Shown: positions 42,620-60,628 of the stretch, one piece after another
Layout: every line of letters begins with the position of its first letter
Position numbering within the stretch: position 1 is the first letter of the stretch
Assembly: GCF_026625885.1 (NCBI RefSeq)
Contig: NZ_CP113068.1
Location: 3,472,001 to 3,536,000 of the forward strand
Length of the DNA: 64,000 bases
Source of the DNA: Roseateles sp. SL47
GTDB taxonomy: Bacteria > Pseudomonadota > Gammaproteobacteria > Burkholderiales > Burkholderiaceae_C
Direction: 5' to 3'
Position numbers and translations under genes: made by a program
The notes under the pieces: model-generated
Databases searched by the model: none
What the model was told of the DNA's origin: nothing
The model's input: the letters and a program-made list of their open reading frames with translations, nothing else

Positions 42620-43471
42620 ATGGGTGTGGTCAAGCTGCTTTTGTTGAGCATCTTGCTGGCCATGGGGTGGCCGTGTTGTGGACGGGCGTTGGAACTTCAA
42701 GTGACGGTGCACGCCAGCGGCCCGCACGATCTCAGCGAGGCCTATGTCCGTGACCTGATCGCCCTGGCCCTCAGCAAGGCCCTGCCGCCGGGTTCGAAGA
42801 CCACCATGGTCACCACCGATCCGATGACCAAGACTCGGGCCATTTCCACACTGAAGAACGGGCAGCTGGCCGGATTTGTGCTGAACATCGCTGGACAGGT
42901 GGACGATGAAGCGCTCGTCAAGATCAATCTGCCGACGTTTCTTGGCGCCTCGGACTACCGGATCTGTTTTGGACGTGCCGCGCTGCGAGGGGCTCTTGCC
43001 GAGGTGAAAACGGTCGATGACCTCAAACCGTTCAGCTTTGCGCATGCCCTGGGCTGGGCCGACACACCGGTGATGCGGGCCAATGGCCTGAAGGTGATCG
43101 AAGTTCAGCGCATCGATTCCATTTTCAGGATGATGAGCATTGACCGCGTGGATCTGTTCTGCAGGAATCTCATCGAAGTGCTGTTTGAACTGGATGCCGC
43201 GCCTCCGGGCGTGGTGGTGATGGACGGTTTCCTGCTCAAGTACCCGGCGCCGCACTATCTGCATGTCCATGTGCGGGACCGGGCGCTGGCCGACCTTCTC
43301 CAGCAAGGCCTGCTGGCCGCTGTCCGCGACGGTTCGGCGCCCAGGCTGCTCAAGCGCTATCTCCTGCCATCCAGCAAACGCTTCGATCTGAAGCATCGCC
43401 GGGTTATACCGCTGACGGGTGGGTACGAATATTCCCGGGAATCGCTGCCGAAGCTGGACTTCCTGCCCTGA
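42620..43471 (+). CDS. Periplasmic solute-binding-like protein (SBP_bac_3-like)
   Basis: This 283-residue exported protein has a signal peptide (VVKLLLLSILLAMGWPCCG, cut near RALA/ELQ). The fold resembles bacterial extracellular solute-binding family 3, with two lobes suggested by VRDLIALALSKALPPGS, FVLNIAGQVDDEAL, FGRAALRGALAEVKTVDDL (lobe crossing) and RVDLFCRNLIEVLFELDA. The amino acid ligand motif is weak, so a role as sensor or scavenging receptor is possible. AGAGGAG (42609-42615) precedes the ATG by four bases. It is followed, 91 bases later, by a membrane-protein gene on the same strand. Confidence 0.7.
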   Translation: MGVVKLLLLSILLAMGWPCCGRALELQVTVHASGPHDLSEAYVRDLIALALSKALPPGSKTTMVTTDPMTKTRAISTLKNGQLAGFVLNIAGQVDDEALVKINLPTFLGASDYRICFGRAALRGALAEVKTVDDLKPFSFAHALGWADTPVMRANGLKVIEVQRIDSIFRMMSIDRVDLFCRNLIEVLFELDAAPPGVVVMDGFLLKYPAPHYLHVHVRDRALADLLQQGLLAAVRDGSAPRLLKRYLLPSSKRFDLKHRRVIPLTGGYEYSRESLPKLDFLP

Positions 43472-43562
43472 GTGTCTGGTGCCGGTCGTTTCGCCTCGGA
43501 TAGACTGGCTTGGGCAGGGTGGCCCCTGCTGACCTCGACCCTAGACGAGCCACAAGAACACT

Positions 43563-44342
43563 GTGCACTTTTCCAAAAACGCCCGCCGTCGTGCCCTCGC
43601 CATCCAACGCGTCAAAGACCGCCTGGACCGAGACTCCTTCCCCCGGATTCAGATGCTGTTGCTGGTGGGGCTCACCGGCGGATTCGGGCTGCTGTCGTCC
43701 TTCCTGCTACTGCTGTGCGGCGTGGATTCGATGGCCCTGCGCTACCCGCTGGCGCTGGCCTGTGCGTATCTGTTTTTCCTGTTTCTCATTGGCCTCTGGC
43801 TTCGGACCAATTCCCGCGATTACGTGGATGCACCGGACTTGCTGGACCTGGTGCCGACGCCGCGGCGCTCCGATGGCCTGTCCGGCTTTGACAGCGGTGG
43901 CGGTGGGGATTTCGGCGGCGGGGGAGCTTCGGCTTCGTTTGATGGCCCCCGCGTTGCCATCGACGACGCGGGCTCGTCGCTGGGGGCGGTCAAGGACACG
44001 GTGGGCGCCGCCTCCGACGCCGACGAACTGGCCATCCCGCTGCTGGCCATTGTGCTGGCCATTGGCATTGCATTGGCTTCCCTCTACGTGGTCTACATTG
44101 CGCCAGTGCTGTTTGCCGAGGTGATGGTGGACGGTGCGCTGTCGGTGGTGCTGTTCCGTCGATTGAACGGGCAGGGCGCTCAGCACTGGCTGGCCAGTGC
44201 CTTTCGTCGCACGGTGTGGGCGTTTGTGGCCACCGCTGTGTTTCTGATGGCGGTTGGTGCGGCCATGGGGGCTTATGCGCCGGGGGCAAAGTCCCTGGGG
44301 CAGGTCATGAAGCATGCGGCGGAGCTGCGCGCCCACAAATAA
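43563..44342 (+). CDS. Membrane protein of unknown function (259 aa)
   Basis: This 259-residue inner-membrane protein has four hydrophobic segments: two near the N terminus (MLLLVGLTGGFGLLSSFLLLL and ALACAYLFFLFLIGLWL), a Gly/Ser/Asp-rich disordered loop (about residues 100-150, with DSGGGGDFGGGGAS), then ELAIPLLAIVLAIGIALASL and a final FVATAVFLMAVGAAMGAY. A GTG start gives MHFSKNARRRALAIQ, an amphipathic positive leader. The Gly-rich cytosolic loop is reminiscent of periplasmic/secretion accessory proteins, but no family is recognised. It could be cotranscribed with the upstream binding protein. Confidence 0.62.
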   Translation: MHFSKNARRRALAIQRVKDRLDRDSFPRIQMLLLVGLTGGFGLLSSFLLLLCGVDSMALRYPLALACAYLFFLFLIGLWLRTNSRDYVDAPDLLDLVPTPRRSDGLSGFDSGGGGDFGGGGASASFDGPRVAIDDAGSSLGAVKDTVGAASDADELAIPLLAIVLAIGIALASLYVVYIAPVLFAEVMVDGALSVVLFRRLNGQGAQHWLASAFRRTVWAFVATAVFLMAVGAAMGAYAPGAKSLGQVMKHAAELRAHK

Positions 44343-44839: not shown

Positions 44840-45043
44840 ATGGACACGATGGCAACACCTCCAAAGAAGGCCGCAGCGGCCAAGGATCCCGTGGAAGTCA
44901 AGCTGGTCAAGAGCGGCAAGCGCACCGCTGCGACCACCAAACCCGATCTGGAAATCACCACCGGCCTCACCGGTGGCCAGAAGTACCACATCAAGATCAA
45001 CCAACCGTCCGGCAAATCAGTGCTGGTGGCCGTCCACCTCTGA
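44840..45043 (+). CDS. Small peptide (67 aa), candidate RiPP precursor
   Basis: This 67-residue basic peptide starts MDTMATPPKKAAAAKDP. An alternative ATG (44849) would give 64 residues. The Lys/Ala-rich first third is followed by an alternating strand-like part (VEVKLVKSG, DLEITTG, YHIKINQ) with a Gly-Gly at GLTGGQKY and a C-terminal hydrophobic end SVLVAVHL. There are no Cys and no hydrophobic export signal. The stop is nine bases before the thiamine-diphosphate enzyme, so it is the first gene of the operon. Its position, size and the peptide-binding-like domains of the later enzymes make it the likely substrate; this is inference. It could instead be a small structural or scaffold protein. 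Confidence 0.65.
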   Translation: MDTMATPPKKAAAAKDPVEVKLVKSGKRTAATTKPDLEITTGLTGGQKYHIKINQPSGKSVLVAVHL

Positions 45044-45052
45044 CGGCGCTTC

Positions 45053-46813
45053 ATGGCTGGACACCCCACCGGGCAGCGGTGGAATGGAGAAGCTTTGCCT
45101 TGGCTGCATGGTGGCGACCTGGTGGCCCAGCAGCTCAGAGCCGAGGGCATCGACCGGCTGTTTGTGCTGACCGGCGGCCATGTCTCGCCCATCTTTGATG
45201 GCGCCTTCTACCAGGACATCGGACTCATTGACTTCCGCCATGAGCAGTCCGCAGCCCATGCGGCGGATGCTTATGCGCGTCTGCGGCGTCGGCCCGCCGT
45301 CGCGGTGGTCACCGCCGGCCCCGGCTTCACCTGCGCCCTGACGGGGCTGGCCAACGCGCATTACAGCCAGAGCCCGATGGTGCTGCTGGCGGGGCGAAAT
45401 CCTCTCGCCACGGACGGCGCCGGCAATCTGCAGGATGCGCCGCAGGTGGAATTGGCCCGCCCGATCACGAAATTCGCCCAGACCGCCTTTGCTGTGGATC
45501 GCATCACGGCGGTGATGAGCCAGGCGTTTACTGCGGCCCGAGCCCCGCGCATGGGGCCGGCCATGGTGGATTTCCCCATTGAGACGCTGCTGGCGCGCGT
45601 GGCGCCGGAAGACTGCAGCGTGCCGGCCACACCAGTGTCCGCCGCGCATCCGGATCCGGCGGACGTGCGCAGGGTGGCCCGCTGGCTGGCCGAGGCACAG
45701 TCCCCCGTGCTGGTCGCAGGCTCCGGGGCCTACATGGCCGGTTGCGGCGAAGCGCTGGCGGCGTTGGCCGACGCAGCACGGCTGCCCGTTTTCATGAACG
45801 GCATGGGCCGGGGCCTGTTGCCGGCCCGTCATCCCATGGTCAGGTTTCGTGGACGTGCCCAGGCACTGGCGCAGGCCGACCTGGTGATCTGCCTTGGGGT
45901 GGACTTCGACTTCCGCCTGGGTTTTGGCCAGGGCATTGCGGCGCACGGGGGGCGTGTGGTGCAGGTGGATGCCGATGCGTCCCGCCTGGCTCGCAATCGA
46001 CCCGTGTCATTGGCGGTCTGCGCGGATTGTCGGACCTTCTCGGAGGCACTGCTGGGCCAAACCTCCGCATTCTCGGTGCGCCACGCACTGGCGGTGCAGG
46101 CCGAGTTGCCCAAGCCCTGGGAGGGGAGTGGGCGCGACGAACCGATTGACCCGCGCGACATGGTGCGGGTGGTGTCCGACTTTCTTGATCCCGACGCCAC
46201 TGTCATTGGCGACGGCGGTGACATCGTGGCCCTGTTCGCGGCGTATCACCGCAGTGAGCGTCCCGGCAGCTGGATGGACCCCGGGCCGTTCGGCTGCCTG
46301 GGCATTGGCCCGGCCTTTGCCATGGCCGCCCGGCTGGCGCAGCCTGATCGCCAGGTGGCGGTGATTTCCGGCGATGGGGCGTTTGGCTTCAATGCCATGG
46401 AGCTGGATTCGGCCGTCCGCCAGAAGCTCCCCTTTGTGGTGGTCATTGGCAATGACCGCGCGTGGGGGGAGATGCGGACCTTCCATGAGGACATGTTTGG
46501 CGGGCATGACCCCCGGGCGCAGTACCTCGGTGCCAACGTGCGCTACGACCTGCTGGCCCAATCGCTGGGCGGCCATGGCGAACGCGTGACGCGGCTTCGC
46601 GACCTGCAACCCGCGCTGGCGCGCGCATTCCGAAGCGGGGTGCCCGCTGTGGTGGACGTGATCCTGGACCCCGCCTTCCGCCGACCGGCAGAAACCATTT
46701 CCGGCAAGCACGTGGCAGCAGCCTACGGCGGTGACCCGCTGGCTTACCGCCGAGGTCCTTCGGCGGTTGAAACCGTCCGACCCCGTTCAGCCCGACACAC
46801 CTCAAGACCATGA
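45053..46813 (+). CDS. Thiamine-diphosphate-dependent enzyme (acetolactate synthase-like)
   Basis: This 586-residue cytosolic ThDP enzyme of the acetolactate synthase / oxalyl-CoA decarboxylase fold has three domains. The Pyr domain (1-180) has LFVLTGGHVSPIFDGA and the activating Glu64 in FRHEQSAAHAADAYAR. The central domain (about 200-340) has PVLVAGSGAYMAG and VVQVDADASRLARN. The PP domain has GDGAFGFNAMELDSAVRQ with VVIGNDRAWGEM, the metal/diphosphate motif GDG...N. The C-terminal tail is unusual. It should carry out a decarboxylation or C-C ligation on a 2-oxo acid. The stop overlaps the next ATG (ATGA at 46810). Which acid or peptide keto group it uses is unknown. Confidence 0.87.
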   Translation: MAGHPTGQRWNGEALPWLHGGDLVAQQLRAEGIDRLFVLTGGHVSPIFDGAFYQDIGLIDFRHEQSAAHAADAYARLRRRPAVAVVTAGPGFTCALTGLANAHYSQSPMVLLAGRNPLATDGAGNLQDAPQVELARPITKFAQTAFAVDRITAVMSQAFTAARAPRMGPAMVDFPIETLLARVAPEDCSVPATPVSAAHPDPADVRRVARWLAEAQSPVLVAGSGAYMAGCGEALAALADAARLPVFMNGMGRGLLPARHPMVRFRGRAQALAQADLVICLGVDFDFRLGFGQGIAAHGGRVVQVDADASRLARNRPVSLAVCADCRTFSEALLGQTSAFSVRHALAVQAELPKPWEGSGRDEPIDPRDMVRVVSDFLDPDATVIGDGGDIVALFAAYHRSERPGSWMDPGPFGCLGIGPAFAMAARLAQPDRQVAVISGDGAFGFNAMELDSAVRQKLPFVVVIGNDRAWGEMRTFHEDMFGGHDPRAQYLGANVRYDLLAQSLGGHGERVTRLRDLQPALARAFRSGVPAVVDVILDPAFRRPAETISGKHVAAAYGGDPLAYRRGPSAVETVRPRSARHTSRP

Positions 46814-47571
46814 CCCCTGCCGACGCTCCATTGAAGGCCCGTTCCGGCCGCGAGTTCATCCTCGGCTTCGAGGAGGTGATGGATGCGCTGATGGAGACAT
46901 CGGTGCAATGCAACCGTTTCTGGACGGCCATTCGGGAATCGCCCGAGACCGTTCCCCGACCGGTGTATTTCGGAATGTGCCTGGAGAACTTTCATATCCT
47001 GGCGCGCGAGCCTCTCTTTGACGGGCCGGTGCTGGCGTTCTCTGGCAACCATGCCGTGAGAACCACACTCAACCGTTTCTATGCCGAGGAGCTGGGGCAC
47101 GACAAGCTGCTGCTGAGCTCACTGGCGGCGCTGGGGCTGACGGAGGACGAGGTGCGTCACAGCATCCCGCTGCCGACCACCTGGGCGCTGATCGACGGGC
47201 TGGCGTACTGGTCGCGTTTCGAGCCGCTGTTCTTTGCCGCGACCCTGGGCATTCTTGAGGGCCGCGAAGTGGCGGAAGATGCATTCGTGGGCGCGGCGCG
47301 ACGGCGTCAATTGTCCAAGGGGTTTGTCGACCCGATGATGGCCCATGCGCGCATCAATGCGGTCGGCCGGCATGGCGAACTCTCGCGCGAAGTATTTGGG
47401 GCCATCGAGGTGGTGACTGCTGCAGAACAGGCGCGCCTGCGGGAGCTGTTGCCGCTGTTTGTGGCCCTCTACGACGATTTCTATACCGGCATCTGGCACC
47501 ACTATGCCGCCATGGATGACGGTGAGCGACCCCTGCCGGGGTTTCTTCGGCAGCTGGAGGTGCTGGCATGA
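46810..47571 (+). CDS. Heme-oxygenase-like (HDO-type) putative diiron oxidase 1
   Basis: This 253-residue all-helical protein resembles the heme-oxygenase-like diiron oxidases (PqqC/TenA fold, 'iron-containing redox enzyme' family). Candidate metal ligands are Glu in CLENFHILARE (Glu59), EELGHD with Glu94 and His97, and the late helix MMAHARINAVGRH with His179 and His188. At the position where many family members have Asp, this protein has Asn183. FEPLFFAATLGILEGRE supplies a further Glu. No membrane or signal segment is present. Translation is coupled to both neighbours by ATGA overlaps (46810 and 47568). Family members perform oxidative cleavage, desaturation or N-oxygenation; the reaction here is unknown. 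Confidence 0.8.
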   Translation: MTPADAPLKARSGREFILGFEEVMDALMETSVQCNRFWTAIRESPETVPRPVYFGMCLENFHILAREPLFDGPVLAFSGNHAVRTTLNRFYAEELGHDKLLLSSLAALGLTEDEVRHSIPLPTTWALIDGLAYWSRFEPLFFAATLGILEGREVAEDAFVGAARRRQLSKGFVDPMMAHARINAVGRHGELSREVFGAIEVVTAAEQARLRELLPLFVALYDDFYTGIWHHYAAMDDGERPLPGFLRQLEVLA

Positions 47572-48572
47572 CCGCTGAAACATTTCTGCAGCGTCCACGC
47601 CTGCGCGCCGGCGTGGCGATTGATGAGAATCTGCAGGGCTTCACCGTCCGGCTGCGTGGAAGCAGCTGCCAGATCGACAGCAACGAGGCGGCCAGAGCGC
47701 CGCTGAGACAGTTGCTGTCGACGCTGGCCCAAGGCGTGGACCCCGCAGAGGTGTGCACGGCCTTCGGGGATTTCAGCGAGAACGCCCATGCCGTCATCGA
47801 CCAATTGGACCGCTTTGGCTACATCACGGAGGGTGCAGCCTTCGAGGTTCGCACCGACCTGGTGGAAGCGGACACCTTCCTGCGCGCCTTGTATCGCCTT
47901 GCGGAGGGAGACCATGGTGACGCGACACCTTCGCCGTCTGCCGCTCAGAGTGCTGGTGATGGCGTGCGGAGTGAAGGATTCACCTGGCAGTTGGCGCAAG
48001 GCACGGCGCAACGGGCGCAGTTGGTGCGGTATGCCATTGAATATCTGCATATCGTGCGCCATGGCCCTGGACTGGTGGCGCCGCTGCTGAACTGGGTGGC
48101 GGAGCCGGCGCTGCGAGCCGAGGTGTCCGAGTTTCTGCATGAAGAGTGGCGCCACGACCGCCTGCTGGCGCAAAGCCTCGATGCGGTGGGATTGAATGCC
48201 GATGCGGTGCGCCCGGCGGCCATGCTGCCGCCGACCTTTGCGTTGCTTGCGCAACTGGGGGTTCGTGCCACGACAGATCCTTTGGCGCTGGCGTCTCTGC
48301 TCTACATTTATGAGCGCTCCAACCCCGCGTTTCATGCGCTCTATGCGGACAACTGCCGCCGCGTCGGTCTGCCGGAGGCGTTTCTGGGGCCGGTGCTCCG
48401 GCATGCCAGCATGAATGATGCCGGCCGGCACGATGACATCGCAGCACTGCTGGTGCGGCACTTCTGCCCGGTCGGACGCGAGCGGGCGGTCGCGGCGCTC
48501 TCCGATGCCTCCGTGGCGATGGAGCACTTGCGCCGGCTGGACTTGGCGCTGGGTCAGATCCCCTCGGAATGA
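47568..48572 (+). CDS. Putative diiron oxidase 2 with N-terminal RRE/PqqD-like domain
   Basis: This 334-residue protein has two parts. Residues 1-90 (RPRLRAGVAIDENLQGFTVRL, then a helix pair ending VIDQLDRFGYITE) look like a winged-helix peptide-binding domain as found in RiPP enzymes: an RPRL opening, a strand triplet, and a DxLxxxGYIxE end. Residues 140-334 are heme-oxygenase-like, with Glu158 in IEYLHIVRHGPGL, EEWRHD (Glu193, His196) and LRHASMNDAGRH (His279, Asn283, His288). The architecture suggests that the enzyme recruits a peptide substrate. The start overlaps the previous stop as ATGA. A low-complexity linker (about 118-135) joins the two domains. Domain 1 assignment is by pattern only. 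Confidence 0.75.
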   Translation: MTAETFLQRPRLRAGVAIDENLQGFTVRLRGSSCQIDSNEAARAPLRQLLSTLAQGVDPAEVCTAFGDFSENAHAVIDQLDRFGYITEGAAFEVRTDLVEADTFLRALYRLAEGDHGDATPSPSAAQSAGDGVRSEGFTWQLAQGTAQRAQLVRYAIEYLHIVRHGPGLVAPLLNWVAEPALRAEVSEFLHEEWRHDRLLAQSLDAVGLNADAVRPAAMLPPTFALLAQLGVRATTDPLALASLLYIYERSNPAFHALYADNCRRVGLPEAFLGPVLRHASMNDAGRHDDIAALLVRHFCPVGRERAVAALSDASVAMEHLRRLDLALGQIPSE

Positions 48573-48585
48573 TGCGGCGCGAAGC

Positions 48586-49971
48586 ATGACGGCCGGCGTC
48601 TTTTCTCGGTACCGCCGGCCTCGGCTGCTCGCAGACCAGGTGCGGCCGACAGGGGATGGCGCAGTGAAGCTTCAGCGCGGACAGCGCAAGCTCACATTGG
48701 ACGTCGTTGGCCCTCGTGACGCTGCCCTGGCCGACCTTCGAGCGCTTCAGCGCGGACAGTGGCCTGCGCTGAACGACGCGAGAAACGGATCCCCCCTGGC
48801 GGTCATCCTGGACGAACTGGACGCCCTGGGGTGGATTGGTGAGGCGGAACCGGTGGCCCAGGACCTGGATCAAGCCTGGCGGACCAGCCTGGACGCTCTG
48901 GTCGAACGCGGTCGGCAGGCCCTCAACGGCGTGGACGAGGGCACACGTCGTGCGATGAAACGCAGGCTTCTTGGCGGCATGAGAGATCCGGCAGAGCCCT
49001 TGGGCCGCTACGGGCAAGCCTTGGGTGTGGAGGATGTTCTGGTCCGGGCCTTGCGGGTGCAAGGGGAGCGCGAATCCACCTGGCAGGCGTTGGTGATTGC
49101 GCGGCTGTTCGGCGCGGCGGGTACACGCTGGCCTGCGCAGGGGGGCGGCTGGATGGAGGATGCCCGTGAGCTGGAGATTGCGGTGGCGAGCCAGGTGTTC
49201 TGGTCCTTGAAGGCGGAAACTGCGCCGATGGCGCTCCCGCCGCTGCCGACGATACGGAGCGCCGCACGGGTCTGTGCGTTGGAGGTGATGCGGGACGCCG
49301 AACAGATGCTGCGCGACTGGAATGCGTCGGTCCCGGACGCTCCAGTGCTGGCGGCGGGGCAGTCGGCACGCGCAGCGCGCCAGATTGCGCGGGGCATTCA
49401 TTTGCAGCAGTACTACGTCTCGCTGAAGTATGTGGAAAGCGTGCTGCCCGTGCTGGGCCGCAGTGCAGCGCCGGGGCTTCGAGCCTTGATCTGGCGCTAT
49501 CTGCAGGAGGAGATGGGGCACGAAGACTATGAGCTGGCGGCTTGCCTGCAACTTGGCCTGCGGGCCTCCCAGGTACGGGCCAACGTGCCCCTGCCTGCAT
49601 TTGCTGTGTTCCACCGTGTGATGGCGCATGCTGCGACGCTGCATCCGGTGGTGTGGCTCACGTCCCTGCCGCTGGCCGAGGGGCTTCCAGGAGAGCGTAA
49701 ACCGCTGCCGGCCGTGCTGGCGCGAGCGGGGCTCCGGGACCCGGCTTTTGCCGCCCATGTCGAAGCGGATGTCACCCTGGATCACGCCTGGATGGCGCGG
49801 CGGATCGCCGCTCATTTGGGGACCGTGGATGCGGCGACCCGGCGCGCTGCCGCTCAGATGACGGCAACCACCTGGGCACTCACCCGGCTTGGGTGGGAAC
49901 AGCTCGTTCACCGCTTCAGTGCTGGAAGCGGGGCTGGTGTGGTGACGTCGCCGTGGGATTGGCCGTGCTGA
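48586..49971 (+). CDS. Putative diiron oxidase 3 with N-terminal RRE/PqqD-like domain
   Basis: This 461-residue protein starts 14 bases after the preceding stop. Residues 1-88 repeat the N-terminal pattern of the previous protein: RRPRLLADQVRPTGDGAVKL at the start and VILDELDALGWIGEAEP at the end. A middle helical section (about 95-260) with HHL-like IHLQQYYVSLKYVESV is followed by EEMGHED (Glu309, His312) and AHVEADVTLDHAW (His391, Asp395, His400). Unlike proteins 1 and 2, the late helix keeps Asp at the third ligand position, so this copy looks the most complete as a diiron oxidase. It is the last gene of the operon. The middle section may be a second, degenerate heme-oxygenase-like unit. 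Confidence 0.75.
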   Translation: MTAGVFSRYRRPRLLADQVRPTGDGAVKLQRGQRKLTLDVVGPRDAALADLRALQRGQWPALNDARNGSPLAVILDELDALGWIGEAEPVAQDLDQAWRTSLDALVERGRQALNGVDEGTRRAMKRRLLGGMRDPAEPLGRYGQALGVEDVLVRALRVQGERESTWQALVIARLFGAAGTRWPAQGGGWMEDARELEIAVASQVFWSLKAETAPMALPPLPTIRSAARVCALEVMRDAEQMLRDWNASVPDAPVLAAGQSARAARQIARGIHLQQYYVSLKYVESVLPVLGRSAAPGLRALIWRYLQEEMGHEDYELAACLQLGLRASQVRANVPLPAFAVFHRVMAHAATLHPVVWLTSLPLAEGLPGERKPLPAVLARAGLRDPAFAAHVEADVTLDHAWMARRIAAHLGTVDAATRRAAAQMTATTWALTRLGWEQLVHRFSAGSGAGVVTSPWDWPC

Positions 49972-50012
49972 GCCGGCTTGGCCTCGGCCCAGGGGGGCAG
50001 GCCCGCACTGGC

Positions 50013-50460
50013 TCATGCTCCTTGCCGCAGGCTGAACGTCCGCAGGAAGATCACCGGCGCTGACCGGTCCTTGAGGCGATACCCCATCGGAGGTCGATGG
50101 GAGTCGCTTCTGATCTGCCCCACTGGTGCCGTAAATCTTCCGGAAATCTTCCGGAAAGTCCGCCGCCAGCATGCGGGTGCGGAAGCTGCCTTTGTCCACG
50201 GGGCGACCCAGCCCCCCCTCATCGGTGCGCTGCAACTGCGGCAGGGTGAAAGGCTCTGGCATCAGGAACGCGGGGCGCGACGTGTAGTCCACCTTGCTGC
50301 GCAGCCGTTCCACCGCCGCCTGCAGGGTCTGGCCATGGTCAAAGGCGAGTTGCGGGCCCTGCAACAGGTCAGCCACGCTGAACCAGCCGACGTCAGCGGC
50401 CTGGGCGCCCTTGGCCTGCAGGCCCGGAGCGAGGCGGTTGCTGAGCGTGTCCAGCCGCAT
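50013..50460 (-). pseudogene. Nudix / NrtR-type regulator remnant
   Basis: The frame from 50460 encodes VGWFSVADLLQGPQLAFDHGQT, followed by VDYTSRPAFLMPEPFTLPQLQRT and GRPVDKGSFRTRML. This is the C-terminal winged-helix region of NrtR-like Nudix regulators, which control NAD genes. The Nudix box upstream is missing, and a frameshift near 50130-50170 moves the reading to the other minus frame, which supplies the natural-looking end GYRLKDRSAPVIFLRTF. It is therefore broken at both ends of the gene. It fills the gap between the oxidase operon and the sigma-factor gene. Confidence 0.7.
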
Positions 50461-50512: not shown

Positions 50513-50558
50513 AAAATCTGATCCCGAGCGCTGCTTGGGTATTCTGCGGAGTCCCCTG

Positions 50559-51077
50559 TTGCCAACCGCCGAGTTAGCGCTGCGTGAGCAGCTCCATGTC
50601 TGGTACAGCGATCACCATGGCTGGCTGCACGCCTGGCTGAGCAAGCGCCTGGGCTGCCCGCAGCAGGCGGCGGATGTGGCGCACAACACCTTTATGCGTG
50701 TGCTGATCGCACGCGATGCGCTGTTCGGTGTCCAGCAGCCGCGTGCCTGGCTGACGACGACGGCCAAGCGCTTGATGGTGGACGACATCCGGCATCGGCG
50801 CATCGAACAGGCCTATCTGGCGGAGTTGGCCGCGCTTGGCCGCGAGCAGGACGGCTTTCCTTCGCCCGAGCAGATCGTTGCTGCCGTGCAGGCGCTGATG
50901 CAGCTCAGTGCGGCGCTGGAGTCGGTCTCCAGCAAGGCCAGGACCGCGTTCGTGCGGCACTATCTTGACGGCGAGACGCATGCCGCCACGGCCGCCGAAC
51001 TGGGGGTGTCCACGCGTATGGTGCAGAAGTACCTGGCCCAGGTGCTGCTGCAATGCCGCGGCTTGGGCCGCGGCTGA
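50559..51077 (+). CDS. fecI: ECF sigma factor, FecI type
   Basis: This 172-residue iron-starvation-type ECF sigma factor directs RNA polymerase to the receptor gene downstream. Region 2 contains LHVWYSDHHGWLHAWLSKRLG and QQAADVAHNTFMRVL (core binding). Region 4 contains TAAELGVSTRMVQKYLAQVL (helix-turn-helix for -35). A TTG start at 50559 is chosen because GGAG lies 8-12 bases before it; an earlier TTG at 50535 is possible. It starts about 50 bases after the Fur-like site. The FecR gene begins 13 bases after the stop. Activity is probably controlled by FecR upon receptor binding of ligand. Confidence 0.9.
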   Translation: MPTAELALREQLHVWYSDHHGWLHAWLSKRLGCPQQAADVAHNTFMRVLIARDALFGVQQPRAWLTTTAKRLMVDDIRHRRIEQAYLAELAALGREQDGFPSPEQIVAAVQALMQLSAALESVSSKARTAFVRHYLDGETHAATAAELGVSTRMVQKYLAQVLLQCRGLGRG

Positions 51078-51089
51078 GGCAGTCGGTAG

Positions 51090-52109
51090 GTGGACCGCAA
51101 GGTGCATGACATGCGCGGCGACCTGGCTGTGGCGGAGGAGGCGGCCGAGTGGATCGTGCGCCTGAGCGCCGATGCCGACGAGGAGCGCGAGGCAGCCCGC
51201 CGCGGCTTTGATGCCTGGAAGCGCGCCGATCCCCGTCATGCCGCCGTCGCGGCGGACATGGAACACTTTGTCGAACAGACGAGGCGCCTGGCAGGTCCCG
51301 CGACCGAGTTGTGCGCCGCCCGTGCGGCGCTGGATGCGGTGCTGCCACCGCAGCGTCGCAGCCGACGAGGGGCGGTATCGATGGCGCTGCTGCTGACGGC
51401 GGCAATAGGCGGCGTGGCCTGGCTGTCTGCCGACCTGCCAGCCCCCTGGTTGGCGGATTTGCACACGGCGGTGGGAGAACAGCGCAGCCAGCGTCTGGCC
51501 GACGGCACGATGCTGACGCTGTCGAGCGACAGCGCCGTTGACTACCAGTGGGGCGCGGACCTGCGTCGCGTCAGCATGCGTGGCGGCGAGATCTTGCTGG
51601 ATGTGGCCAAAGACGCCCGTCGGCCACTGGTGGTCGACACGCCCGAGGGCCGTATTCGCGCGCTGGGCACGCGCTTCATCGTGCGGCGCGATGGGGATGC
51701 CACGGTGCTGACGATGCTGGAATCGAGCACGGCCGTGAGCCTGAGCGCCACGCCTGGAGGGCCGACCAGGCCAGCCGAGGCCGTTGTGTCCGCCGGCCAG
51801 CAGGTGCGCCTGTCCGCTCATGGCCTGGAGCGCCTGTCGACCATCAGCCCAGGCATTGTGGAAGACGCGTTCAAACTCAGGCGGCTGGTCGCCCAGGACC
51901 GTCCACTGTCCGAGGTGCTGGACGAACTGGCACGCAATCGTCGCGGCCTGATCCGCTATGACAAGGCGGCGGTACGGGGCCTGCGCGTGACTGCCGTGCT
52001 GCCCTTGGACGACACCGATCGCGCCCTGCAACTGCTGGCCGCCAGCTTTCCGCAGCTGCAGGTGCGTGTGCCAACACGCTGGCTGGTGCTGGTGGACGTC
52101 CGGCGCTAG
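51090..52109 (+). CDS. fecR: FecR-family anti-sigma/sensor protein
   Basis: This 339-residue inner-membrane protein carries the signal from the receptor to the sigma factor. The N-terminal cytosolic part has the DUF4880-like EEAAEWIVRLSADADEEREAA and RGFDAWKRADPRHAAVAADME. One membrane helix is at SMALLLTAAIGGVAWLSADL (about 98-117). The periplasmic FecR domain starts VGEQRSQRLADGTMLTLSSDSAV with GGEILLDVAKDARRPLVV and a C-terminal STN-contact region LLAASFPQLQVRV. The start GTG at 51090 keeps the whole N-terminal helix; an ATG at 51111 is a possible shorter start. The stop TAG abuts the left end of a 123-bp MITE-like element that separates the gene from the receptor. Confidence 0.9.
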   Translation: MDRKVHDMRGDLAVAEEAAEWIVRLSADADEEREAARRGFDAWKRADPRHAAVAADMEHFVEQTRRLAGPATELCAARAALDAVLPPQRRSRRGAVSMALLLTAAIGGVAWLSADLPAPWLADLHTAVGEQRSQRLADGTMLTLSSDSAVDYQWGADLRRVSMRGGEILLDVAKDARRPLVVDTPEGRIRALGTRFIVRRDGDATVLTMLESSTAVSLSATPGGPTRPAEAVVSAGQQVRLSAHGLERLSTISPGIVEDAFKLRRLVAQDRPLSEVLDELARNRRGLIRYDKAAVRGLRVTAVLPLDDTDRALQLLAASFPQLQVRVPTRWLVLVDVRR

Positions 52110-52232
52110 TGTGCTGTCCCACAGGTTCCCGCCAATGAAACCGCGTCTTTCGCGTCTTTCGCGTGTTCCGCGCCTTGCTCCGGCACGACATCCATCGATT
52201 GCATTTTTGGCAGTGACTTGCGGGACAGCACA
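52110..52232. mobile_element. MITE-like element with 26-bp imperfect terminal inverted repeats
   Basis: The element is 123 bp. The left end TGTGCTGTCCCACAGGTTCC (running to 52135) and the reverse complement of the right end (52207-52232) match over 26 bases with five or six mismatches. The outer 11 bases (TGTGCTGTCCC) are perfect. TAG stands directly outside the left end and TTAG outside the right end, compatible with a short target duplication that includes the fecR stop. It encodes no protein; inside is a short tandem GCGTCTTTC repeat. It should be mobilised by a transposase elsewhere with the same ends. Confidence 0.7.
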
Positions 52233-52375
52233 TTAGGTGCCGGTTTTTTTTCGCCGCAGCGGTTCCGGTTTCGGCGGCTTGTCCGTCAAGGGGAGTGAAA
52301 GGCTTCAAGCCTGCGCGCCTGCCTGGCAGGCGCTGCAGGTGATGTCCTGCCCAATCACCCCTAGGAACTCAGCTC

Positions 52376-54892
52376 ATGAATTCGAACTTCCCACGTACCG
52401 CCGCTGCGCGCGCTATTCGCCCAAGTCGCAACACTGCCGCGCCTACGCGACCGCTCGCCTTGGCCCTGGTGATCCACCTCGCCTGGGCGGGCGGCATGGC
52501 TGGCTTTCTTGCCTCCGGCGCACAGGCTCAGAGCGCGACCGCGCTGGTGCAGGCCCAGGTGCCGGCAGGCCCGCTGGGCGAGGCGCTGAGCCGCTTTGCG
52601 CTGCAGGCCGGCGTGTCGCTGGCAGTGGATGCTGACAAGGTCAAGGGCAAGACCAGCGCCGGGCTGACCGCTGCGGTGACGGTGGATGAGGGCTTCCGCC
52701 GTCTGCTGCTGGGCAGCGGCTACCGGATTGATCGCAGCGCGGCCGGCTTTGTGTTGGTGGCTGCGCCCGCTGCGCCGGCCGCGCCCCAGACGGCGCAGGC
52801 GGCAACGCCACCCGTGCGCGCATCGGCGCCCGGTGTTGAGCCGACACTGACGACCGTGCTGCCCGTCGTGACGGTCACTTCCAACCGCCTGGGCGACATC
52901 ACCGAGGGCACCGGCTCCTATACCGCCGGTGCCATCGCCACCGCGACCCGACTGGTGCTGACCCCGCGCGAGACACCTCAAGCGATCAGTGTTGTGACCC
53001 GCCAGGAGATGAGCGACTTCAACCTGACCTCAATCGATGCGGTGATGGCACACACCCCGGGTGTCAGCATCGTCACCTACGACAGCGAGCGCACCGAGTA
53101 TTACGCGCGCGGCTTCGCCATCCAGAACTTCCAGTACGACGGCATCCCGATGCAACGGGACTCTTCTTACTCAGCGGGAAACACACTCACCGACATGGTC
53201 ATCTATGACCGCGTCGAGGTGCTCAAGGGCGCCACCGGCCTGCTCACCGGCAGCGGCGACCCGGGTGCGACGATCAACCTGATTCGCAAGAAACCGACCA
53301 AGAAATTTCAGGGTGAAGTGAGCCTGGGCGCTGGCTCCTGGGATAGTTACCGCAGCCAGCTTGATGTCAGCGGTGCGTTGAACTCGGCAGGCAGCTTGCG
53401 AGGCCGTGCCGTGGCGGCCTACCAGGACAATCACTCGCAGCTCGACGGCTACGAACGCAAGACCTCAACCTTCTACGCCGTGCTCGAGGCCGATCTCAGC
53501 ATGTCAACCCTGCTCACCCTCGGCGCCGATTACCAGGACAACACCCCGACCCGCTCGACCTGGGGCGGCATTCCGATCTATGACAGCAACGGCAACTTCA
53601 ATGAGATGCCGCGCTCCTTTAACAATGGAGCCAATTGGAGCAGTTGGAAGCAATACACGCGCACCGCTTTCGCCACGCTGGAACACAGCTTCGACAATGA
53701 CTGGCTGCTCAAGGCCCAGTTCAACCATCAGATCAACGGCTACGACGCACCGCTCGGCGCTGCGGCAAGCGGCTACCCCAATCCTGCCGACGGCAGCGGC
53801 GTATCCACCTGGGAAGGCAAGTACGTCGGCAAGACGGTGGCGGATGCCCTCGACGTGTATGCCAGCGGACCGTTTGAGCTGCTCGGGCGCAAACACGAAC
53901 TGGTGCTGGGGGGCAGCCTGTCGGAGCGCACCTGGACCAATCAGGGCTATTGGACCAATGGCACCAGCGTGACTGATTATTTCGGCTGGAACGGCAACCT
54001 TGCCGAGCCGGACTGGGACAACCTGCCGGCCAGCAACAAGTACACCAACCGGGAAGTCACCCGTGAGAGTGGGCTCTACGCCACGGCCCGTCTCAATCTG
54101 CGCGACGACCTCAAACTGATCGCCGGCAGCCGCGTGCAGAACTACAAAAACGAAACGACCGATAAATCCGGCGTCATCGTTCCCTACCTCGGCAGCATTT
54201 ATGACCTGAACAAGCAGTATTCCCTCTACGCCAGCTATACCAGCATCTACAAGCCGCAGAGCCTGCAAGATGTCAACGGCAAAACGCTAGATCCGCTCGA
54301 AGGTCTCAACTACGAGGTCGGCATCAAGGGCAGCTTCTTCAACAGCCGCCTGAACGCCAGTGCCTCTGTCTTCATGCTGGAGCAGGACAACTATGCCAAT
54401 CCCACCAGCAGCTTGACCCCCGGTGGCGACACCGCCTATGAATCCATGAATGGTGTGCGCACCAAGGGTTTCGAAATGGAGGTGTCCGGCGAATTGATGC
54501 CGCAATGGCAGATCCACGCGGGCTTCAGCCACAAGATTTCCCGCCAGCAAGGGGAAAAGGTTGTGACACTGACCCCGGAAAACCAGTTCACCCTGAGTAC
54601 CGCCTACAAGCCCAACGTCCTGCCTGGTCTGACCCTTGGTGGTGGTGCGCGCTGGCAAGACAAAACATGGGACAACGTCAGCCATCCAACACTAGGCACC
54701 GTCAAACACACCGTCTCCGGCTACTGGTTGTTTGATGCCATGGCCGGCTACCAGATCGACAAGAACCTCTCGGTCAACCTGAATGTCAGCAACCTGCTCG
54801 ATAAGAAGTACTACACCATCTTCAGCTGGTACAGCACCTACACCTGGGGCGCCGGGCGGGCCTTCAACTTGAACGCCACGTACAAGTTCTGA
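52376..54892 (+). CDS. TonB-dependent siderophore receptor with signalling domain (FpvA/FoxA type)
   Basis: This 838-residue outer-membrane receptor imports a ferric siderophore or similar ligand with TonB energy and signals to FecR. It has a signal peptide (hydrophobic LALALVIHLAWAGGMAGFLAS, cut near AQA). The STN signalling domain (about 45-115) has QVPAGPLGEALSRFALQAGVSLAVDAD. The plug (about 180-330) has TPQAISVVTRQEMSDFNLTSIDA and VEVLKGATGLLTGSGDPGATINLI. The 22-strand barrel ends NLNATYKF with the C-terminal Phe. The start follows AGGA (52364-52367). It is separated from fecR by 266 bases that include the MITE. The ligand is unknown. Confidence 0.94.
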   Translation: MNSNFPRTAAARAIRPSRNTAAPTRPLALALVIHLAWAGGMAGFLASGAQAQSATALVQAQVPAGPLGEALSRFALQAGVSLAVDADKVKGKTSAGLTAAVTVDEGFRRLLLGSGYRIDRSAAGFVLVAAPAAPAAPQTAQAATPPVRASAPGVEPTLTTVLPVVTVTSNRLGDITEGTGSYTAGAIATATRLVLTPRETPQAISVVTRQEMSDFNLTSIDAVMAHTPGVSIVTYDSERTEYYARGFAIQNFQYDGIPMQRDSSYSAGNTLTDMVIYDRVEVLKGATGLLTGSGDPGATINLIRKKPTKKFQGEVSLGAGSWDSYRSQLDVSGALNSAGSLRGRAVAAYQDNHSQLDGYERKTSTFYAVLEADLSMSTLLTLGADYQDNTPTRSTWGGIPIYDSNGNFNEMPRSFNNGANWSSWKQYTRTAFATLEHSFDNDWLLKAQFNHQINGYDAPLGAAASGYPNPADGSGVSTWEGKYVGKTVADALDVYASGPFELLGRKHELVLGGSLSERTWTNQGYWTNGTSVTDYFGWNGNLAEPDWDNLPASNKYTNREVTRESGLYATARLNLRDDLKLIAGSRVQNYKNETTDKSGVIVPYLGSIYDLNKQYSLYASYTSIYKPQSLQDVNGKTLDPLEGLNYEVGIKGSFFNSRLNASASVFMLEQDNYANPTSSLTPGGDTAYESMNGVRTKGFEMEVSGELMPQWQIHAGFSHKISRQQGEKVVTLTPENQFTLSTAYKPNVLPGLTLGGGARWQDKTWDNVSHPTLGTVKHTVSGYWLFDAMAGYQIDKNLSVNLNVSNLLDKKYYTIFSWYSTYTWGAGRAFNLNATYKF

Positions 54893-59746: not shown

Positions 59747-60628
59747 TTACCGCTTGGCGCGGCGCCGTCCACTTGGCAGATACAAGTCCGCCCGCACCGG
59801 CATGTCGGCGTCCTCATGGCTGAGGAACTTCGGATTGAGAGGTAGCATGCCTAGCTCCTTGCCGAGCTGAGCGGGGCTCAGAACTTTCGTATGCAGCGTG
59901 CTGATGGGCTCATGCTTGCCTTGCGCCTCAAATTGGCGCATCAGCGTGTAGTCCGTGGTTAGAAGGCAGTACATGCCGTGGACCTCCGCAGTTTTCACAT
60001 GCCAAGCATCTTGGCTCGACTTCTCGCCGAGTCGGCGTCGAAGCGCGATGTATAGCGGGTCTGTGGACTGCTGCAGTCGCTCGCGCTGCAGCTCTTTCAT
60101 TCTCGGAGCCTTCATCGATGAGGGGCCGATGGAGATTTGCGGCATGCCATCGACGGACATGATTTCGATTCCATCGAGGACACTGCGTGCGAACAGTGAA
60201 TAGCCAGCGACCATTCCCGTTGGCTTCACCCACCTCTCGGTTATCAGTTCGCCCGAGGAATGAAGTTTGATAAGTCCATGGCGTGCTAGGTGTGCGAGCC
60301 CGACCAGATAGCAAGCGTCCTGGAAATTTCGGTGCTCATGTGGTGGAGCGTCTCTCGGAGGCCGGCGATGGACTGGCACCCGCGCGAGATAGCCGGTATC
60401 CACGGTGGTGTTGCCCCACGGTTGGTGCCCGGTGGATACCCACAGTGACTCGTGCAGGACTGCGGCTGCTAGGGCACTCGTGTCGATGAGGACGCGGATA
60501 GCCCCAGTCCGCTGCAGCCGGCGCCGTGTTCTAAAGGTGAACAGCTCCAGCAAGAAAATGCCGGTTCGACGCTGAGCTTCCCACTTGAGGATGTGAATCC
60601 AAGACTGAACTCTCTGTCGTGGGCTCAT
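59747..60628 (-). CDS. PIN-like domain protein 2 (293 aa)
   Basis: This 293-residue protein is on the opposite strand. It has a basic N-terminal region (RVQSWIHILKWEAQRR), then AIRVLIDTSALAAAVLHESLW, the classic PIN first strand with LIDTSAL, a FQDACYLVGLAHLARHGLIKL helix region, and SSQDAWHVKTAEVHGMYCLLTTDYTLMRQF, where QDAWH and LLTTDYTL resemble the PIN second half with conserved Asp residues. The C terminus is basic (GRRRAKR). The start lies 15 bases from the second poly-C tract. Its partner, if any, is unknown. It converges with the first PIN-like gene. Confidence 0.6.
   Translation of the reverse strand: MSPRQRVQSWIHILKWEAQRRTGIFLLELFTFRTRRRLQRTGAIRVLIDTSALAAAVLHESLWVSTGHQPWGNTTVDTGYLARVPVHRRPPRDAPPHEHRNFQDACYLVGLAHLARHGLIKLHSSGELITERWVKPTGMVAGYSLFARSVLDGIEIMSVDGMPQISIGPSSMKAPRMKELQRERLQQSTDPLYIALRRRLGEKSSQDAWHVKTAEVHGMYCLLTTDYTLMRQFEAQGKHEPISTLHTKVLSPAQLGKELGMLPLNPKFLSHEDADMPVRADLYLPSGRRRAKR

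Follow-up and report, generated by a model that had tools for sequence, protein, structure and literature searches.

A Roseateles operon with a small peptide, a thiamine diphosphate enzyme and three heme-oxygenase-like diiron oxidases probably encodes a peptide-modifying pathway

We describe here an operon at 44840..49971 of a 64,000-nucleotide stretch of the Roseateles sp. SL47 genome (hereafter the window). The best explanation of the operon as a whole, and one in which we have good confidence, is a pathway for a ribosomally synthesized and post-translationally modified peptide (RiPP). Here a precursor ending in Val-His-Leu (VHL) would be oxidized at its C-terminus by heme-oxygenase-like diiron oxidases (HDOs) and then handled by a carbonyl enzyme that differs between lineages. 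The + strand carries a run of five closely packed genes in the order peptide, thiamine diphosphate (ThDP) enzyme and oxidases 1, 2 and 3. All five are present as described in an initial annotation of this DNA, as are the ATGA overlaps it reported at 46810 and 47568.

The gene order at four loci, the fixed end of the precursor, the orthology of the HDOs and their ligand pattern are read from sequence, and the HDO fold of oxidases 2 and 3 from predicted models. Three of the four loci come from a tblastn search of 72,556 plasmid records, which returned three records with relatives of oxidases 1 and 2, two of them also with oxidase 3. Tistrella mobilis pTM3 encodes a ThDP enzyme, an oxidase 1-2 fusion and oxidase 3. 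Robbsia andropogonis p4 encodes oxidases 1, 2 and 3, a class-III aminotransferase, an EamA transporter and a GNAT acetyltransferase. Rhodococcus gordoniae pDND3A encodes oxidases 1 and 2, an MFS transporter and a GNAT. The peptide gene heads the operon in all four loci that could be read as DNA (window, Tistrella, Robbsia, Rhodococcus), which bears out the expectation that it should always stand first, and a short encoded precursor lies beside modifying enzymes in each, as is characteristic of RiPPs.

The precursor gene of the window most likely occupies 44849..45043 and encodes 64 residues, judging from alignments that begin at this start in 9 of 11 peptide clusters (the window's own included); of the exceptions, cluster P0025 begins further upstream and cluster P0031 is shorter. 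The open reading frame (ORF) of 67 residues that had been annotated, 44840-45043, is present, but its first codon is now only the alternative start. The C-terminal half of the peptide is almost invariant across the 11 clusters, ten of them foreign. The proposed modified end, VLVAVHL, is encoded at 45020..45040. His-Leu is invariant in all 11 clusters, Ile replaces Val in one (P0026), and with the three plasmid loci added 14 of 14 peptides end in [VI]HL. The three foreign ORFs were found by translating the DNA upstream of the oxidase operons and are not listed in the gene tables. That of Tistrella has 55 codons, ends in KPVLIAVHL and directly precedes the ThDP gene; those of Robbsia (27 codons, RPVLIPVHL) and Rhodococcus (17 codons, TIVAVAVHL) precede oxidase 1 and have a Shine-Dalgarno-like AGGAG or GGAGG upstream. 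From the window peptide, which ends in KSVLVAVHL, the length thus drops from 64 to 55, 27 and 17 residues with the C-terminal end unchanged. Since synonymous codons differ between the loci (Val GTC/GTG/GTT, His CAC/CAT, Leu CTC/CTA, stop TGA/TAA), it is the amino acids that are kept. This sequence evidence makes it very likely that the ORF encodes a RiPP-type precursor whose C-terminus is fixed.

The ending is rare. In six frames, [VI][AP]VHL-stop occurs once per stretch in all four readable loci (64,000, 18,302, 20,552 and 24,564 nt), each time heading the operon. Across 77 other loci (306,890 nt), a set that includes several overlapping pieces of the window's own genome, it occurs once, in L068, and this is the window's own peptide again. 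Plain VHL-stop has one further occurrence in the window, on the opposite strand at 60531, and a looser scan of the three plasmid stretches for [VILA]H[LIVMF]-stop gave the same three ORFs only.

A short ORF in this place might instead be the leader of a transcription attenuator, in which case the substrates of the HDOs would be free amino acids, His or Leu for example. Strong hairpins do lie between the ORF and oxidase 1 in Robbsia (L012 10867-10937, -31.6 kcal/mol, z -6.6) and Rhodococcus (L014 10514-10600, -50.7 kcal/mol, z -4.7). These hairpins perhaps yield more peptide than enzyme, and a hairpin behind the precursor gene is a known feature of RiPP operons. The peptide has no regulatory run of codons, its one His standing at the end, and its amino acids are kept despite codon changes, as are about 33 residues in the window clade. 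In the window itself the 9-nt gap to the next gene is too short for a hairpin, and the Tistrella stretch folds no better than shuffled sequence (z -0.94). We therefore regard attenuation as improbable and the precursor assignment as the better account of the ORF.

The gene system is rare and patchy in its distribution. A word-based search of ~5.8 billion proteins gave 12 clusters for oxidase 2, 9 for oxidase 3 and 11 for the peptide, own included, where ~8,000 candidates sharing most words were scored for each of the two oxidases. For seven of the ten foreign peptide clusters the longest contig is identical in nucleotide length to that of an oxidase 2 or 3 homologue (9482, 12454, 12682, 1796685, 12827, 5724 and 16030 nt), a pairing drawn from shared longest-contig size with the contigs themselves unread. 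This co-occurrence is beyond chance. The other three (longest contigs 3395, 4409 and 807 nt) have no partner in the oxidase 2 and 3 lists. Locus tags from a Paraburkholderia and a Massilia metagenome-assembled genome, EPN73_02175 (peptide)/_02190 (oxidase 2) and ACJ8LG_20435 (peptide)/_20415 (oxidase 3), fit the five-gene order.

Amongst whole genomes, only the window's own passed the thresholds in sets of 16 from the genus, 399 from the family, 399 from the order and 350 from the class; at most 5 candidates per genome were scored for the family, 4 for the order, 6 for the class and 7 for the phylum. Comparison of oxidase 2 with 60 relatives (own included) gave four weak foreign matches (best E 3.7e-6), and a phylum search of 299 genomes with an oxidase 1 alignment reached 44 besides the window's own at E 1e-8 (best 2.9e-14). 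Loci L001-L034 other than the plasmid loci (L012-L014) contain no VHL-stop ORF within the ~1.5 kb read on each side of the match, a span that peptides further off would escape; L018 has one look-alike ORF ending in LLLAVHM. Two scans of genome contigs produced pattern matches (113 and 397 stretches) and a viral contig scan 35 stretches, with no relatives in either case. On its - strand, at 1339-2325, L016 (G968) encodes a distantly related HDO whose N-terminal domain is winged-helix-like; a 20-residue ORF, MKLKKVSKKSTKKLGGATCG, stands ahead of this gene and an MFS-like gene behind it. The locus is possibly another HDO peptide pathway with a different core.

The three oxidases follow one another at 46810..47571 (oxidase 1, 253 residues, EELGHD), 47568..48572 (oxidase 2, 334 residues, EEWRHD) and 48586..49971 (oxidase 3, 461 residues, EEMGHE). 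The start of oxidase 3 is most likely the ATG at 48586, 13 nt behind the oxidase 2 stop; because homologues support this ATG, no overlap with oxidase 2 is needed. That the three are HDOs is upheld for oxidases 1 and 2 by PF14518 (31.1 and 33.8 bits, cut-off 28.9), and for oxidases 2 and 3 by predicted models in which a heme-oxygenase-like fold is visible; oxidase 3 scores 24.3 bits with PF14518, below the cut-off. The HDO domain of oxidase 2 spans ~residues 97-334 and that of oxidase 3 is C-terminal. The set of three is complete in the window, in Tistrella (with oxidases 1 and 2 fused) and in Robbsia, but oxidase 3 is not in the Rhodococcus stretch. Opposite oxidases 2 and 3, the - strand has an open frame of 826 codons (47980-50460), which most likely results from the G+C-rich codon usage. 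The GC content of the operon is not set apart.

The nearest peptide-modifying match, though not the best match by sequence, is MboA of mangotoxin biosynthesis, which matches weakly (oxidase 1 E 0.019, oxidase 2 profile E 0.13). According to PMC13185094, MboA holds two irons by Glu86, His89, Glu143, His172, Asp176 and His181; its substrate is a peptide that is oxidized at the C-terminal residue while the carboxylate of that end is bound to Fe1. AetD, UndA, HrmI and PolF likewise bind the substrate carboxylate. The corresponding positions are E94, H97, E150, H179, N183 and H188 in oxidase 1, E193, H196, E249, H279, N283 and H288 in oxidase 2, and E309, H312, E365, H391, D395 and H400 in oxidase 3. 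The oxidases have E-x2-H and H-x3-[ND]-x4-H, with gaps between the motifs similar to those of MboA, and five of the six ligand positions are kept in 21 of 21 HDO rows aligned. The Asp176 position is Asn in oxidase 1 (4/4), oxidase 2 (9/9) and two of seven oxidase 3 rows (Robbsia and Tistrella); the outgroup row and the remaining five of oxidase 3 have Asp there.

In a maximum-likelihood tree of these 21 HDO domains, oxidases 1 (4 rows), 2 (9) and 3 (7) are each split off by one branch, with supports of 92/95, 98/99 and 100/99. Two changes suffice for the three groups, which is the minimum; the long branch of the one outgroup row leaves deeper joins unsure. Oxidases 1 and 2 are naturally fused in Tistrella (L013 8576-10651), and because of this fusion we suggest that they work as one complex.

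Such a complex gives some appeal to the alternative in which the peptide serves the oxidases as a small subunit, structural or gating, and is not their substrate, and the almost invariant C-terminal half in the 11 clusters would suit a binding surface. At 17 residues in Rhodococcus and 27 in Robbsia, the whole peptide is too short to make a folded subunit, and what every locus retains is the very end of the C-terminus, where MboA takes hold of its own substrate. A subunit role is accordingly unlikely, if somewhat less so than attenuation. The peptide could also be a scaffold to which a peptide aminoacyl-tRNA ligase adds a C-terminal amino acid, the HDOs then acting on the added residue. Pearlin-type systems offer the analogy, with a short scaffold, a conserved C-terminus and adjoining oxidative enzymes. 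There is no ligase gene among the five, and Lant_dehydr_N is unmatched in the window's own genome and the three plasmid records, which is weak evidence, the control genomes being silent too. Of the alternatives considered, we give this one the least credence. A precursor oxidized on its own C-terminal residues remains our preferred account.

The ThDP enzyme (45053..46813, 586 residues) starts 9 nt behind the peptide gene and is 47% identical to its Tistrella counterpart. It belongs to the acetolactate synthase/2-hydroxyacyl-CoA lyase superfamily and has all three TPP domains (TPP_enzyme_N/M/C, E 4.6e-34 to 1.4e-27); its best solved relatives are found in the family of 2-hydroxyacyl-CoA lyase, acetolactate synthase and benzaldehyde lyase (E 1.5e-72). 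It falls below the cut-off of each of the best 25 of 53 matched NCBIfam models (top 495.7 of 587 bits). The initial annotation counted this enzyme among the parts of the pathway, but it is not a core one: the stretches read for Robbsia and Rhodococcus lack it, and it is by this comparison optional. Robbsia has the class-III aminotransferase instead, and neither enzyme is in the Rhodococcus stretch. Within the peptide, a TGLTGG block encoded at 44960..44977 co-occurs with the ThDP gene (window clade and Tistrella) and is not in the Robbsia and Rhodococcus peptides, whose stretches are without that gene; given the small number of lineages, we take this as no more than a hint that the block is read by the ThDP enzyme.

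The aminotransferase in the place of the ThDP enzyme is the reason for which we propose daptide-like carbonyl chemistry. In daptides, an RRE (RiPP recognition element) protein presents the C-terminus, the residue at that end is oxidized to a ketone, and a class-III aminotransferase follows (PMC10036551, PMC12338566). Against the daptide model NF041821 the Robbsia enzyme scores 157.7 bits with a cut-off of 450.

Put together, these observations suggest the following pathway. The peptide gene would supply the precursor, with Val-His-Leu-COOH the part kept everywhere. The diiron HDOs (oxidases 1 and 2, and oxidase 3 in three of four lineages) would take the free C-terminus into their active sites, the peptide carboxylate binding iron as in MboA. 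Because His-Leu is fixed and the HDO family is known to bind a peptide C-terminus at iron, oxidation of the terminal Leu, the His or both is suggested. Residues further upstream in the peptide would be held, as by an RRE, by the N-terminal domains of oxidases 2 and 3 and, in the other lineages, of oxidase 1. The oxidase product may be a reactive carbonyl at or near the C-terminus, a tentative proposal that we make because the partner enzymes perform carbonyl chemistry and because of the daptide precedent. It would be elaborated by the ThDP enzyme through C-C ligation or cleavage in the window and Tistrella, and by the class-III aminotransferase in Robbsia, before release of the product by a host protease. 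The GNATs of Robbsia and Rhodococcus (30% identity across 138 positions) and the transporters of these loci would be consistent with N-acylation or self-protection and with export. The steps that we infer are peptide recognition by an RRE, docking of the C-terminus, carbonyl formation, the ThDP reaction and release.

The RRE function draws on the two N-terminal domains that were annotated as RRE-like, a description that stands in part. These domains (oxidase 2 ~residues 10-90, 47595-47837; oxidase 3 ~residues 12-86) model as strands followed by two helices and are compatible with an RRE in these predictions, but they have no PqqD match by sequence. Oxidase 1 of the window is without such a domain, whereas its Robbsia, Tistrella and Rhodococcus orthologues have one. 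PF05402 has no match in the window's own genome at E 0.001, and an RRE is not among the VIA-align rows for oxidase 2, which span residues 97-334 only.

Several observations weigh against this pathway. DSSP assigns two helices in the N-terminal domain, whereas an RRE is a three-stranded sheet plus three helices. PqqD was not found for ten N-terminal pieces (Pfam, E up to 10), and hhalign of the domains against PqqD gave probabilities of 0.2 to 22.8%, compared with 0.4 to 17.5% for three reversed controls; the oxidase 1 domains, which scored best, were without a reversed control, and the PqqD profile was built from 27 PqqD-family sequences from 30 loci, three having been dropped where the stretch was too short to centre the match. 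With Asn in place of Asp, the diiron chemistry of oxidases 1 and 2 could be altered or lost. By sequence 3dde and CADD outscore MboA, which is also not among the fold matches listed for oxidases 2 and 3. Models other than that of the daptides fit the Robbsia aminotransferase better (PigE, 240.6 bits). Neither a protease nor an exporter is among the five genes, and the conserved block of ~33 residues in the window clade exceeds the needs of a simple core. Finally, the VHL pattern was designed after the ends had been seen and describes rarity and not a blind test, and the DNA-level reading is limited to four lineages.

The operon shares features with several known systems and differs from each. 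Mangotoxin biosynthesis shares an HDO acting on the C-terminal residue of a peptide and the same E-x2-H and H-x3-D-x4-H spacing. It differs in that ATP-grasp ligases join free amino acids and in having one HDO with a flavin/Fe-S reductase, without a ribosomal precursor or ThDP enzyme in the excerpted text, and oxidases 1 and 2 here carry Asn at the MboA Asp176 position. The mbo set, as given in the excerpts of PMC13185094 and PMC3355146, comprises ATP-grasp ligases, an amidinotransferase-like deiminase and a single HDO together with its reductase; no ATP-grasp enzyme, amidinotransferase or reductase is among the five genes. The Robbsia order of three HDOs, aminotransferase, EamA and GNAT was also considered as mboABCDEF and is ruled out by the same excerpts. 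VarO, the HDO of the thiovarsolin RiPP pathway, has been proposed to install a double bond (PMC6511847, excerpts); that pathway has thioamidated APR/GPR repeats made by YcaO-TfuA, a single HDO and another precursor. Daptides resemble the present system in the class-III aminotransferase of the Robbsia relative and differ in precursor, and heme oxygenase and thiamine are unmentioned in the daptide text searched (PMC10036551, PMC12338566). Neither an NAD(P)-dependent oxidative decarboxylase nor an aminotransferase is among the five window genes.

In pyrroloquinoline quinone biosynthesis, PqqC/PqqD and the PqqCD fusion similarly join a heme-oxygenase-like fold to an RRE in one protein, and PqqC or PqqCD entries occur among the fold matches listed for oxidases 2 and 3. 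PqqC acts without metal, the domain order of the fusion is the reverse of that seen here, and the N-terminal domains here are without confirmed PqqD similarity. An HDO in a RiPP pathway (VarO) and C-terminal oxidation of a RiPP (daptides) are thus already known from the excerpts cited, so that the novelty first claimed for the operon does not extend to the HDO-RiPP pairing. It may hold for the combination: this gene set was not found among the papers listed on HDOs with RiPPs, RREs or ThDP (titles and abstracts, with subscription papers mostly outside the search). The main text of two RRE-mining papers leaves heme oxygenase, diiron and thiamine unmentioned.

Directly 3' of the operon, at 50535-54892, lie genes for a FecI-like extracytoplasmic function sigma factor, a FecR protein and a TonB-dependent siderophore receptor with an STN domain, closest to the FhuE and FauA models and below their cut-offs. 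They are left out of the pathway because they were not seen directly beside the Tistrella operon. Upstream, at 42620-44342, are two genes with no Pfam family over cut-off. The second (43563-44342) has relatives of 69 to 72% identity in 3 of 15 other genomes of the genus and of 35 to 42% in five more. The 19.5-kb stretches of the three genus relatives matched the window only at this gene and do not show the operon to be an insertion.

The operon likely represents a new RiPP class. A fuller definition, in which a VHL C-terminus is combined with carbonyl formation by HDOs and not dehydrogenases and with a ThDP enzyme that makes or breaks a C-C bond, replaced by a pyridoxal phosphate-dependent aminotransferase in a sister lineage, is put forward as a speculative possibility. 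If the reading as a RiPP pathway is right, the RiPPs would gain a class in which each pathway has two to three diiron oxidases and the precursor can be as short as 17 residues, overlooked by the gene tables of the Robbsia and Rhodococcus records (a table known to be incomplete). The C-terminal substrate binding of HDOs, as in MboA, would be combined with genetically encoded and easily varied substrates, and a ribosomal peptide could be a substrate for ThDP chemistry. Genome mining and assays have a simple, testable handle in the fixed VHL end.

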